Shown piece by piece: positions 22,855 to 61,934 of a stretch of DNA of 64,000 nucleotides. Numbering within the stretch: position 1 is the first letter of the stretch; every line of letters begins with the position of its first letter. The DNA is taken from NCBI RefSeq assembly GCF_004310865.1, contig NZ_SIXI01000002.1, positions 372,001 to 436,000 on the forward strand, read 5' to 3'. A model generated the notes under the pieces. It made no database searches. It was given only the letters and a program-made list of their open reading frames with translations, and had not been told where the DNA came from. The stretch comes from Aquabacterium lacunae. GTDB lineage: Bacteria; Pseudomonadota; Gammaproteobacteria; Burkholderiales; Burkholderiaceae_C. The position numbers and the translations under genes were made by a program.

Positions 22855-23020
22855 GGAAACTCCCTGGTTCGGTTCTCGGCATGTGCAAATATGGTGCCAA
22901 GTTGTGACAAATGGTCAGCCTCTGCACAGGGGGTCCCCCGCGAACACGGGGCCGATTTTCAGAAGGCGCACCGAAAAGGCACACTGTGAGATCCCAGCAC
23001 AGCCCCCTCACGGTTTTTCC

Positions 23021-56502: not shown

Positions 56503-57594
56503 TCAGGCCAGGCTGGACAGGTCCCAGCGGGGCTTGACCTCGAAGGTGGCAGCGCGCTGAGGCTCGGCCAGCCCCGCCTGCAGGCGCATGGCCGCCGCCA
56601 GCGCGATCATGGCGCCGTTGTCGGTGCACAGGTGCAGTTCGGGGTAGTGCACACGCACCCCGCGCCGCTGGCAGGCCTGATTCAGCTGCTCACGCAGCAG
56701 CCGGTTGGCCCCCACGCCGCCAGCCACCACGATGCGCTTAAGGCCCGTCTGCTTGAGAGCCGCCAACGATTTCTTCACCAGCACCTCAACAATCGCGGCC
56801 TGAGCCGATGCCGCCAGGTCCACCAGGGTGGCACGGTGCTCGGGCGCGGCCAGCGCTTCAGGCTGGTCCAGCCAGCCCAGACGCACCAGATGGGTGCGCA
56901 CAGCGGTTTTCAGGCCTGCAAACGAGAAGTCCAGGTTGCCGCTGTGCAGCATGGGGCGCGGCAGCTCGAACGCATCGGTGCGCCCGCCTTCCGCCAGGCG
57001 CGACAGGTGGGGGCCTCCCGGGTAGGGCAAGCCCATCAGTTTGGCCGATTTGTCGAAGGCCTCCCCTGCGGCGTCGTCCACGGTTTCGCCCAGCAGGGCG
57101 TAGCGGCCCACGCCGTCCACGCGCATCAGTTGCGTGTGCCCACCCGACACCAGCAAGGCCACGAACGGGAACTCCGGCGGGTCGGCCGACAGGAACGGCG
57201 ACAGCAGGTGCCCCTCCAGGTGGTGCACGCCCAGCAGCGGGCGCTCCAGGGCCACGCCCAGGGCACAGGCCACGCCCGCGCCCACCAGCAAGGCACCAGC
57301 CAGGCCAGGCCCCTGGGTGTAAGCGATCAGATCGACCTCGGGCAGGGCCACCTGGGCCTCGGCCAGCACCTGGCGCGCCAGGGGCACCACACGGCGGATG
57401 TGGTCTCGCGAGGCCAGCTCGGGCACCACACCACCATAGGCCTGGTGCATGTCGATCTGGCTGTGCAGCGCGTGCGCAAGCAGACGCGGCGCGCCACCTG
57501 GCTCGGTGCGCACCAGGGCCACCCCGGTTTCGTCGCAGGAAGACTCGATGCCCAGCACAAGGCGGGCGGCAGTGGCATCACGCAGATCAGACAT
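56503..57594 (-). CDS. tsaD: tRNA N6-adenosine threonylcarbamoyltransferase
   Basis: 363 residues. It transfers threonylcarbamoyl to A37 of ANN-decoding tRNAs with TsaB and TsaE. ASKHA fold with [17 protein letters not shown] at the start, the metal-binding HxExH in [11 protein letters not shown] (His125, His129), [23 protein letters not shown], and the C-terminal [14 protein letters not shown] plus [13 protein letters not shown] with a metal-binding Asp. Full length. It is divergent from the nitrate transporter operon, with 250 bp between. Confidence 0.97.
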
Positions 57595-57664: not shown

Positions 57665-57680
57665 TGGCACAGGGTTTGCA
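57665..57680 (+). promoter_or_regulatory. Sigma-54 (RpoN) promoter of the nitrate transporter operon
   Basis: TGGCACAGGGTTTGCA matches TGGCACR-N4-TTGCW at every conserved position; GG (57666-57667) and GC (57678-57679) are exactly 12 bp apart. Transcription should start near 57691, leaving a leader of about 150 nt before nrtA. It implies an enhancer-binding activator such as NtrC; I did not find a clean NtrC site upstream. Confidence 0.88.
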
Positions 57681-57693
57681 GTACATGCAGTGA

Positions 57694-57742
57694 GCAAGGT
57701 CAAGGGCGACCTTGCGTGACTTGGGTGCCAACGTTGGAGCCC
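57694..57742 (+). promoter_or_regulatory. ANTAR-type tandem hairpin leader (hexanucleotide loops)
   Basis: Hairpin P1: stem GCAAGGTC/GACCTTGC (57694-57715) with the six-base loop AAGGGC. Hairpin P2: stem GGGTGCC/GGAGCCC (57723-57742) with the six-base loop AACGTT. Both loops have A at position 1 and G at position 4, the hallmark of RNA targets of ANTAR antiterminators such as NasR/NasT. They start just after the predicted sigma-54 start site and precede an intrinsic terminator, as in other nitrate assimilation leaders. The ANTAR protein gene is not in the window. Confidence 0.8.
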
Positions 57743-57755
57743 GAGCCTTCCGGAC

Positions 57756-57819
57756 AAAGGCGTCCCGTTGAACCCGACCGCGGCCACTGGCCGGCCGGGC
57801 ACACGGAGACGCCTTTTTT
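57756..57819 (+). terminator. Leader terminator of the nitrate transporter operon (attenuator)
   Basis: AAAGGCGTC (57756-57764) pairs with GACGCCTTT (57808-57816) and runs into T6 (57814-57819). The enclosed segment folds further (CCCG...CGGG and GGCC...GGCC). A short alternative stem GCCTT/AAGGC (57745-57749 with 57757-57761) would capture the terminator's 5' arm, a possible antiterminator. It lies 26 bp before the nrtA ATG, so read-through is needed for expression. Confidence 0.85.
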
Positions 57820-57844
57820 GTTTTCGAACAGGAACGCTTGCATC

Positions 57845-60129: not shown

Positions 60130-60930
60130 ATGACTGCTTTCATCGACGTCAGCCAGGCCGAAATGGTGTTCAGCACCAAAAAGGGGCGCTTTCATGCCCT
60201 GCGGGACATCAACCTGCAGATCCACAAGGGCGAGTTCATTGCCCTGATCGGGCACTCGGGTTGCGGCAAGTCCACCCTGCTGAACCTGATCGCCGGCCTG
60301 CTGAGCCCCAGCAGCGGTGGCCTGATCTGCGACAACAAGGAAATTGCCGGGCCGGGTCCCGAACGGGCCATGGTGTTCCAGAACCACTCGCTGCTGCCCT
60401 GGCTGACCTGCTTCCAGAATGTGTACCTGGCCGTGGAGCGTGTGTTCGGTGGCAAGGAAAGCAAGGAGAAGCTCAAGCAGCGCACCAACGACGCACTGGC
60501 GCTGGTGAACATGAGCCACGCCAGCCAGAAGCGCCCGAATGAAATCTCGGGCGGCATGAAGCAGCGTGTGGGCATTGCCCGCGCCCTGGCCATGGAACCC
60601 AAGGTGCTGCTGATGGACGAGCCCTTCGGTGCCCTGGACGCCCTCACCCGCGCCCACCTGCAAGACGAGCTGCTCAAGATCGTGGCCCGCACGCAGAGCA
60701 CCGTGGTGATGGTGACCCACGACGTGGACGAGGCCGTGCTGCTGTCGGACCGCATCGTGATGATGACCAATGGCCCGGCCGCCACCATCGGCGAGATCCT
60801 GGACGTGCCGCTGGCACGCCCGCGCAACCGGGTCGAGCTGGCCGAAGACCCGACCTACATGCACTGCCGCAAATCGGTGCTCGACTTCCTGTACACCCGC
60901 CACGGCGTGGCGCACAAGACCGCGGCCTGA
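60130..60930 (+). CDS. nrtD: Nitrate ABC transporter ATP-binding protein
   Basis: 266 residues, a single ATPase domain without the NrtA-like extension of cyanobacterial NrtC. Walker A GHSGCGKST, Q-loop VFQNHSLLPWLTC, signature ISGGMKQRVGIARALAME, Walker B VLLMDEPFGALDALTR and the switch His in VVMVTHDVDEAVLLSDR are all present. It powers uptake. It starts 32 bp after nrtB. No nitrate or nitrite reductase gene follows; instead an orphan sigma-54 element lies 38 bp downstream. Confidence 0.94.
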   Translation: MTAFIDVSQAEMVFSTKKGRFHALRDINLQIHKGEFIALIGHSGCGKSTLLNLIAGLLSPSSGGLICDNKEIAGPGPERAMVFQNHSLLPWLTCFQNVYLAVERVFGGKESKEKLKQRTNDALALVNMSHASQKRPNEISGGMKQRVGIARALAMEPKVLLMDEPFGALDALTRAHLQDELLKIVARTQSTVVMVTHDVDEAVLLSDRIVMMTNGPAATIGEILDVPLARPRNRVELAEDPTYMHCRKSVLDFLYTRHGVAHKTAA

Positions 60931-60968
60931 CAGGCCCCGACACGGCAGCCCATCACCCCGGAGAAAGC

Positions 60969-60984
60969 TGGCACACCCTTTGCA
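60969..60984 (+). promoter_or_regulatory. Second sigma-54 (RpoN) promoter, with no gene downstream
   Basis: TGGCACACCCTTTGCA again matches the full TGGCACR-N4-TTGCW consensus, with GG (60970-60971) and GC (60982-60983) 12 bp apart. It shares the sequence GCTGGCAC with the promoter at 57665. The predicted start is near 60995. Downstream are only a terminator (61075-61108) and the antisense lgt gene. Confidence 0.85.
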
Positions 60985-60994
60985 TACTTCTCCA

Positions 60995-61108
60995 GTGGGA
61001 CGCGGGAGCTCAGAGCGACGGCGTCCTCCTCAGCGGGGGTCAGTGGGTCCGCGAAAACTCCACAGACCTCTTTACGCCCCAGGGCTCACCCCCTGGGGCG
61101 CTTTTTTT
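60995..61108 (+). ncRNA. Candidate sigma-54-dependent small RNA
   Basis: Interval from the predicted sigma-54 start to the end of the terminator T-run, about 114 nt. No convincing reading frame is inside. A 5' stem GGACGC/GCGTCC (60998-61003 with 61021-61026), a GC-rich middle that can fold (GCGG/CCGC around 61032-61052), and a single-stranded-looking A/C-rich stretch (61053-61074) precede the terminator hairpin and a U7 tail suited to Hfq. It does not show the two A1/G4 hexaloops of the nrtA leader. Alternatively it is a leader left after loss of a downstream nitrate gene. Confidence 0.55.
61075..61108 (+). terminator. Strong intrinsic terminator of the orphan sigma-54 unit
   Basis: Perfect 10 bp stem CGCCCCAGGG (61075-61084) / CCCTGGGGCG (61091-61100) with a six-base loop, then T7 (61102-61108). 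It is oriented for plus-strand transcripts and ends 17 bp before the 3' end of the antisense lgt gene. Confidence 0.93.
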
Positions 61109-61124
61109 GTGCGGCCGTCAGGGC

Positions 61125-61934
61125 TCAGGCCCGGGCTGGTGAACGCCAGACACCTCGGTGAGCCAGCACCAGAAACAGCGCGCCTGCCCCAATCATGGGC
61201 ACGCACAGCCATTGGCCCATGCTCATGTTCAGTGCCAGCAGGCCCAGGAAATTGTCGGGCTCGCGGAAATACTCGGCCACGAAGCGGAAGCTGCCATAGC
61301 CGATCAGGAACCAGGCCGCCACAGCCCCCAGCGGACGCGGCTTGCGCCCGTACCACCACAGCAGGGCGAACAGCAGCACGCCCTCCAGTGCGAACTGGTA
61401 CAGCTGAGACGGGTGGCGCGGCAGCTCACCTGCACCACGGAACACCATGCCCCAAGGCAGTGCAGGGTCGGCCACGCGGCCCCACAACTCGCCATTGATG
61501 AAGTTGCCCATGCGGCCCGCAGCCAGGCCCACCGGCACACAGGGCGCCACCACGTCGGCCACCTCGAAGAAGTGCCGACGGGTCTTCCATGCGTAATAGG
61601 CCATGGCCGCGATCACGCCCAGCAGGCCACCATGGAAGGCCATGCCCCCCTGCCACACGGCCAGGATCTCGGCCGGGTGCGCCAGGTAGTAAGCCGGCTT
61701 GTAGAACAGCACATACCCCAGGCGCCCGCCCAGCACCACCCCGAGCACGCCCACGAAGAGCATGTCTTCGATCTCCTGCGGGTTCCAGGTGCCGGCATAC
61801 GGGGCACGGGCTGCCCGCAGGCGGGCCAGCAGATAGAACATGGCAAACGCAGCCAGGTAGGTCAGGCCATACCAGTGCACCTGCAGCGGGCCCAGGCTCA
61901 GGGCAATCGGGTCGAATTGAGGGTGTTGCAGCAT
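61125..61934 (-). CDS. lgt: Prolipoprotein diacylglyceryl transferase
   Basis: 269 residues with about seven membrane helices. It attaches diacylglycerol to the lipobox Cys of prolipoproteins at the inner membrane. The Lgt signature [18 protein letters not shown] holds the essential Arg and the Asn-Gly-Glu, preceded by the His-Gly region ([13 protein letters not shown]), and [13 protein letters not shown] follows. The efflux outer-membrane factor and the globin in this window are expected substrates. Divergent from the antiporter gene. Confidence 0.96.

Follow-up and report, generated by a model that had tools for sequence, protein, structure and literature searches.

A conserved candidate small RNA gene with a sigma-54 promoter motif beside the nitrate transporter genes of Aquabacterium lacunae

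In the stretch of the Aquabacterium lacunae genome analyzed here (64,000 nucleotides, hereafter the window), the genes of a nitrate ABC transporter are followed by a -24/-12 promoter motif and an intrinsic terminator, and then by lgt on the opposite strand. The order of the genes is tsaD (minus strand), a sigma-54 motif at position 57665, nrtA, nrtB, nrtC/D, the element under study and lgt (minus strand); coordinates are given in Table 1. A first-pass annotation had proposed a self-contained noncoding RNA of about 114 nt with its own promoter and terminator, a proposal that the comparative evidence described below strongly supports, and its coordinates and distances proved accurate. The full-consensus promoter motif TGGCACACCCTTTGC begins 38 bp past the nrtC/D stop at 60930, the terminator is formed by a perfect 10-bp stem (CGCCCCAGGG-CTCACC-CCCTGGGGCG, 61075-61100) followed by a C and by seven T residues at 61102-61108, and the frame of the antisense lgt ends beyond it, 16 bp separating the T run from the lgt frame end at 61125. 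The statement that no reading frame lies in between stands in part only: a 242-aa open frame (60770-61498) crosses the RNA interval, overlapping nrtC and the antisense lgt, and single genomes, the one of the window included, do keep open frames across it. A coding function was rejected, as each of the three frames (relative to the linker) has a stop in some of 30 relatives.

Table 1. Positions, within the window, of the candidate small RNA gene, its parts and its neighbors
Feature	Position	Strand	Basis
Sigma-54 (-24/-12) promoter motif TGGCACACCCTTTGC of the small RNA	60969-60983	+	Motif match; looser form at fixed distance in the genus
Small RNA gene (candidate), ~114 nt	60995-61108	+	5' end inferred, ~12 nt past the GC of the -12 element
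5' hairpin H1	60997-61027	+	Predicted fold; covariation in the genus
Conserved pyrimidine-rich linker UCCUCCUCAGC, proposed anti-Shine-Dalgarno pairing region	61024-61034	+	Sequence conservation
Middle hairpin H2, loop motif GCGAA	61035-61071	+	Fold; 100% of cells paired in the genus alignment
Intrinsic terminator, 10-bp stem and T7	61075-61108	+	Sequence; covariation
nrtC/D, ATP-binding protein of the nitrate ABC transporter, neighbor on the upstream side	60130-60930	+	TIGR01184, 345.5 bits (cut-off 291.8)
lgt, convergent neighbor	61125-61934	-	TIGR00544
tsaD	56503-57594	-	Named by sequence similarity

The genome of A. lacunae contains a gene for sigma-54, and exact copies of TGGCACN5TTGC are found three times in the window against 0.36 expected, a number reached in 2 of 100 shuffles. 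Besides the copy considered here, one precedes nrtA (57665) and one lies on the minus strand at 22885-22899; in the latter case the next minus-strand frame of at least 150 aa is about 500 bp further and appears, by eye, to encode a sensor kinase-like protein. The segment 60994-61111 is predicted to fold at -58.7 kcal/mol (z -3.19), and none of 200 shuffles folds as well. In the window species the first bases of the linker overlap the closing pairs of H1, and the fold predicted for the window's own copy pairs part of the linker.

Within Aquabacterium, a DNA search located the element in 31 of 42 genomes, that of the window included, and divergent copies after nrtC were recognized in three more (G013, G020 and G033), bringing the number to 34 of 42. 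Five genomes have neither a DNA match nor a close nrtC that could be found (G005, G023, G029, G035 and G039), and in G001, G028 and G036, 3 of the 42, there is no DNA match and the RNA is absent after nrtC; of these three loci (L257, L261 and L256, respectively) two have nrtC almost directly against lgt and one keeps only a terminator. All 30 genus loci compared carry a promoter-like motif, in a loose form, 60-61 nt before CTCAGCGGGGGTC. The motif is there even though, for 25 of the 30 fetched loci, the DNA alignment that retrieved them does not reach the promoter, beginning no earlier than query base 77. The linker TCCTCAGC is invariant in the 30 copies, which a BLAST-type search tends to favor; among the three divergent copies found through nrtC, two keep TCCTCAGC and one has TTCTCAGC. 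The G033 copy (L258) represents a natural linker variant, with CTTCTCAGC and a -12 element reading TTTCGC. Ungapped identity amounts to 32% just before the promoter and to 99% in the linker. The first-pass annotation had pointed to a putatively unpaired A/C-rich stretch of the kind found in Hfq-bound sRNAs; the most conserved part is instead the pyrimidine-rich linker that precedes that stretch.

The three hairpins are likewise maintained. In the alignment of 30 copies, 97.8% of 979 cells are paired, compared with at most 53.3% in controls in which the pairing was slid, and two-sided changes occur at 16 of 35 pairs against 8.2 expected in shuffles, none of 500 shuffles being as good. The covariation signal comes mostly from H1 (8 of 11 pairs) and from the terminator (7 of 13), H2 being nearly invariant: five of its 11 pairs never vary, five change on one side and one on both. 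Many of the one-sided changes give G-U pairs, which on the other strand would be A-C mismatches, and the RNA strand is therefore the one chosen in the first-pass annotation. As judged from these alignments, the element is under selection as an RNA, with a conserved three-part structure and promoter motif, and its conservation across the genus dismisses the idea that promoter and terminator came together by chance. In L093, L103, L109, L091 and Aquabacterium copies the loops of H1 share the motif CAGAG, found as GGCAGAGC with covarying stems in the Piscinibacter-type copies and as GCCAGAGC in many of the Aquabacterium copies; this is perhaps a second functional motif.

The distribution of the element beyond the genus was assessed with models and with sequence patterns. 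Among 399 genomes of the family, model R1 matched 16 at E<=0.001, nine of which have promoter, hairpin and linker and were taken as real: five of Aquabacterium (L041 among them) together with L037, L038, L043 and L047. The layout is absent from the matches L039, L040, L042, L044, L045, L046 and L048, which were taken as chance terminators. Several of the weak matches to the family model display the order sigma-54 promoter, hairpin, UCUCCUCAGC, short hairpin and terminator. A pattern combining promoter and linker, applied to the 399 genomes of the family, matched 42 times in 40 of them, versus 15 times for the reversed control, and 23 of the 42, in 8 genera, look true by eye. Model R2, run on 399 genomes of the order, matched one genome only, from the same family, a weak negative given that it also missed the genome of the window. 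With a stricter pattern applied to 84,980 species, for which about 7 chance matches are expected by a rough estimate, 70 stretches were obtained. Eight of them (L079, L083, L095, L108, L130, L133, L134 and L139) were dropped before counting, by eye on layout and organism, and 62 with hairpin and terminator were accepted, a set that overlaps the genus and family genomes, so the counts are not additive. The accepted copies belong to Aquabacterium, Rubrivivax, Piscinibacter, Methylibium, Aquincola, Azohydromonas, Leptothrix and relatives, their taxon labels being Burkholderiales genera or only Burkholderiales, beta-, Proteobacteria or Pseudomonadota; Rubrivivax gelatinosus, R. benzoatilyticus and Aquabacterium parvum are among the carriers, and NCBI places Aquabacterium and Rubrivivax in the Sphaerotilaceae. 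The element was not matched in the plasmid records searched.

The constancy of YTCCTCAGCRGGG and of GGCAC-N5-YTGC in these 62 copies is no evidence, because the search pattern itself fixes those letters. The T that precedes YTCCTCAGCRGGG does not vary among the 41 copies aligned in A2, from which L091 and L125 (no T4 run in the stretch tested) and, on purpose, 19 Aquabacterium-type copies are omitted. Helix 1 in the beyond-genus covariation test consists mostly of pattern-fixed letters and is not taken as evidence either, and as A2 misaligns H1 this hairpin was tested sequence by sequence. A hairpin stands directly before the linker in all 62 copies, with 49 distinct stems and a mean z of -2.97 (61 of 62 below -1, mononucleotide shuffles), and a terminator-like site follows the linker in every copy by a loose test; the terminator covaries outside Aquabacterium too. 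In other genera H2 has a shorter GGGC...GCCC form. The fold predicted for R. gelatinosus leaves UGUCUAUCUCCUCAGC free between two hairpins, and in that of L103, a Piscinibacter copy, the linker lies within an outer helix.

Based on these sequences, we hypothesize, with a probability of roughly 0.7, that the element is an autonomous gene for a trans-acting sRNA, dependent on sigma-54 and probably controlled by NtrC, and that the linker of this RNA pairs with ribosome-binding sites. We infer that sigma-54 RNA polymerase, activated by an enhancer-binding protein that is most likely NtrC, phosphorylated when nitrogen is limiting, would start near 60995 and produce a transcript of about 114 nt reaching the terminator at 61108. 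In this transcript a 5' hairpin would be followed by a single-stranded pyrimidine-rich linker, (U)UCCUCAGC, by another hairpin and by the terminator with its U tail. The complement of the linker, GCUGAGGA, matches purine-rich ribosome-binding sites, and in view of this complementarity action in trans is the most likely mode: the RNA, probably bound by Hfq at its U tail, would pair with the translation starts of target mRNAs and thereby repress them. The locus has the features expected of a sigma-54-dependent sRNA gene, namely a -24/-12 promoter in the proper place and a stand-alone terminator with no coding function, and with an unpaired conserved seed and a U-rich 3' tail the predicted RNA resembles trans-acting sRNAs of the Hfq type, a resemblance in layout only.

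Control by nitrogen is likely, as far as it can be deduced from the DNA. The consensus for NtrC binding, TGCACCN5GGTGCA, was allowed up to two mismatches, and such sites were found between +100 and +260 from the promoter in 13 of the 62 copies, as compared with 0.6 (maximum 2) in mononucleotide shuffles; within the 150 bases before the promoter none of the 62 copies has one. The sites found lie past the terminator, mostly outside Aquabacterium. Sites with a single mismatch occur in L086, L097, L105 and L121, none of them Aquabacterium-type; that of L097 overlaps the end of lgt, and those of L105 and L121 lie between the terminator and a sense gene. The only site in an Aquabacterium-type copy (L138) falls inside lgt, and in loci of the L104, L105, L121 and L140 type the sites may belong to the sense gene that follows. 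When three mismatches were allowed, two control palindromes were also denser near the element, at 0.74 versus 0.46 and 0.99 versus 0.39 per kb, the NtrC pattern giving 2.02 versus 0.91.

Potential targets were sought with several patterns. In seven genus genomes CGCTGAGGAN{3,11}ATG gave 61 matches, of which 30 were inspected, and one of these, in the genome of the window, precedes a gene for a urea-transporter ATP-binding-like protein, named by reading its sequence. In ten genomes CTGAGGAGAN{0,9}ATG gave 51 matches (50 inspected) against 1 for the reversed pattern, a control that proves nothing about the RNA since reversal destroys the ribosome-site motif itself. The candidates that recur, named by eye, are cynS-, enoyl-CoA-hydratase- and DUF2147-like genes, with amino-acid-binding-protein-like genes elsewhere. 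As a conserved target cynS was discarded, since no more than 7 of 26 genomes have CTGAGGA ahead of the cynS start. When up to two mismatches were allowed, each of 12 genomes had one match to the full complement of the Rubrivivax linker at what its sequence shows to be the RNA gene; elsewhere in these genomes there were six matches in total, against two for the reversed pattern. Matches to GCTGAGGAG are weak evidence because this is also a natural junction of stop codon and ribosome site. No target conserved across genera emerged from these limited pattern searches, by which short or imperfect seeds could be missed, and the model may be mistaken as regards pairing in trans and targets. Immediately ahead of the promoter, the 3' region of nrtC contains GCTGAGGAGCA or CCGAGGAGCA in L054, L006, L008, L009, L011 and L014, a motif partly complementary to the linker which may be a remnant ribosome site or a pairing partner in cis.

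Other readings of the element have to be weighed against an autonomous sRNA, and the gene neighborhoods bear on most of them. In 38 of the 62 copies nrtC lies directly upstream, and a terminator between nrtC and the promoter was not seen, so that read-through from nrtABC would end at the terminator of the RNA. The element could then chiefly serve the nrtABC mRNA as its 3' UTR and terminator, and the small RNA be a by-product or a processed 3' fragment, as is the case for GlnZ, which is reported to be released from the glnA 3' UTR in enteric bacteria (PMC9731577). In the other 24 copies, however, nrtC is absent from that position. Fifteen of these lie within 100 nt of a divergent tsaD, oriented as the tsaD that precedes nrtA in the window; a further copy is 599 nt from tsaD and three are more distant; near the remaining five tsaD was not found within the DNA stretches examined. 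In 12 of the 38 copies with nrtC, tsaD is also present further upstream in that orientation. The arrangement amounts to a slot, tsaD - [nrtABC] - RNA, in which, on this comparison of loci, the RNA persists whether or not the transporter genes are present. The persistence of the RNA without nrtABC argues against a mere 3' UTR, as does the fixed distance of the promoter motif, and we regard this explanation as unlikely; the suggestion in the first-pass annotation that the RNA is made together with the upstream operon does not hold in general.

The first-pass annotation had made its proposal depend on whether the same promoter drives a protein gene elsewhere, and the downstream side was examined for this: antisense lgt follows in 30 of 30 genus loci, and in the wider set the neighbor is an antisense ferredoxin gene in 29 copies, antisense lgt in 22 (51 of 62 taken together) and neither in 11; at least 5 of these 11 have a sense gene 54-119 nt past the terminator. 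By eye, the sense gene is phosphatase-like (LVRHGQASFG) in L104, L105, L121 and L140 and codes for an amino-acid ABC binding protein-like product in L131; L084 and L115 are possible further cases by their reading frames. Such copies would suit a leader or attenuator of a protein gene, perhaps of the ANTAR/NasT type as before nrtA, whose downstream gene was lost in this lineage, and the nrtA leader (57690-57826), with two hairpins and a terminator behind a sigma-54 promoter in the same nitrate locus, and two ANTAR matches over the cut-off in the same genome (G000:C11:366709 and 349249) point in that direction as well. Against it, the antisense neighbors prevail, the sense genes differ among copies, the terminator-like site is present in all 62, the part most conserved is the linker between hairpins, and the tandem A-N-N-G hexaloops were not seen in H1 and H2 when the loops were read by eye. 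As the gene behind the RNA varies from copy to copy, the RNA cannot be a leader dedicated to one of them, and we hold this explanation to be improbable; read-through may still take place in the strains with a sense gene. An antisense regulator of, or a roadblock for, the convergent lgt would fit the short distance between the two and the presence of lgt beside the RNA in all 30 genus loci; yet where ferredoxin or neither gene adjoins, hairpin, linker and terminator are kept, and the exchange of lgt for other neighbors speaks against such a role to the point of making it very unlikely. The RNA might also bind a protein, as a sponge, rather than pair with mRNA, since the conserved linker and the motifs in the hairpin loops, GCGAA for H2 in Aquabacterium and CAGAG for many copies of H1, could be protein sites and a conserved mRNA target was not found. 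Known sponge RNAs carry a motif repeated within one RNA. Here no such repeat was seen, the linker is unpaired in the predicted fold of R. gelatinosus and it is anti-Shine-Dalgarno in sequence, and a sponge seems to us an unlikely function.

We accordingly retain a sigma-54-dependent sRNA acting in trans as the preferred reading. A wider and more tentative idea, which we consider possible but rather doubtful, is that it constitutes a general post-transcriptional arm of the nitrogen-limitation response, specific to a lineage of Sphaerotilaceae-type Burkholderiales (Aquabacterium, Rubrivivax and relatives), in which a sigma-54/NtrC-driven anti-Shine-Dalgarno RNA would act on many intra-operon stop-start junctions (GC-UGA-GGAG) and would have been kept through loss and gain of the adjoining nitrate transporter. 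Among the papers listed by searches of an open-access library there was no sRNA study of these genera and, to our knowledge, few sRNAs driven by sigma-54 have been described. A structurally defined sRNA family with named carriers would offer an entry point to RNA-level nitrogen control in these bacteria, and genomes with and without nrtABC beside the same RNA provide a natural comparison.

With regard to known systems, leaders of the NalA/nasF (NasT-ANTAR) type belong to nitrate loci, where a sigma-54 promoter precedes their hairpins and terminator, and their hallmark is a pair of tandem hairpins with hexaloops bearing A1 and G4, together with a downstream gene. The element shares with them the promoter, the hairpins, the terminator and the locus, and differs in lacking a downstream sense gene in the genus, though at least 5 of the 62 wider copies have one, and in showing no tandem hexaloops. 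The segment 57665-57826 before nrtA contains an exact sigma-54 promoter motif, two hairpins and, immediately ahead of the start of nrtA, a third hairpin that resembles a terminator; its loops include AAGGGC, and the second hairpin, CC-AACGTT-GG, can form a hexaloop in the predicted fold. That segment looks like a NasT/ANTAR antitermination leader and, in its predicted fold, fits the type better than the RNA described here. NrsZ of Pseudomonas is a stand-alone sRNA dependent on sigma-54 and NtrC, and the candidate RNA resembles it in the sigma-54 promoter, in being a stand-alone sRNA gene and in its nitrogen logic; the two were set apart by description, on the basis of another host group, another gene neighborhood and the lack here of any Rfam family at threshold.

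In the Rfam scan no family reached its gathering threshold, either in the window or in the loci of 12 relatives. Below threshold, RF02871, the ncS54 of Burkholderia cenocepacia, scored 29.8 bits over the whole model against a gathering score of 43 and was rejected; among six genus loci scanned only the window copy (L001) matched at E up to 0.01, the five others being without a match. The two RNAs have the same layout of hairpin and terminator in the 3' half. The level of ncS54 is reported to rise 3.1-fold in biofilms and 2.0-fold on starvation, and the words rpoN, nitrogen and nitrate have no match in the main text of that paper (PMC5688073). GlnZ, in turn, is made from the glnA 3' UTR under nitrogen limitation in E. 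coli and relatives, and has in common with the present RNA a tie to nitrogen limitation and a place adjoining a nitrogen-assimilation operon (PMC9731577). In contrast to GlnZ, which is released from a 3' UTR, the RNA described here is preceded by a sigma-54 promoter motif of its own and is also found where the neighboring operon is missing, the two sequences having been compared by the Rfam scan only. Nitrogen sRNAs such as GlnZ and NrsZ would be its closest functional counterparts, and the element is best regarded as a putative new family within the kind of sigma-54-dependent sRNAs.
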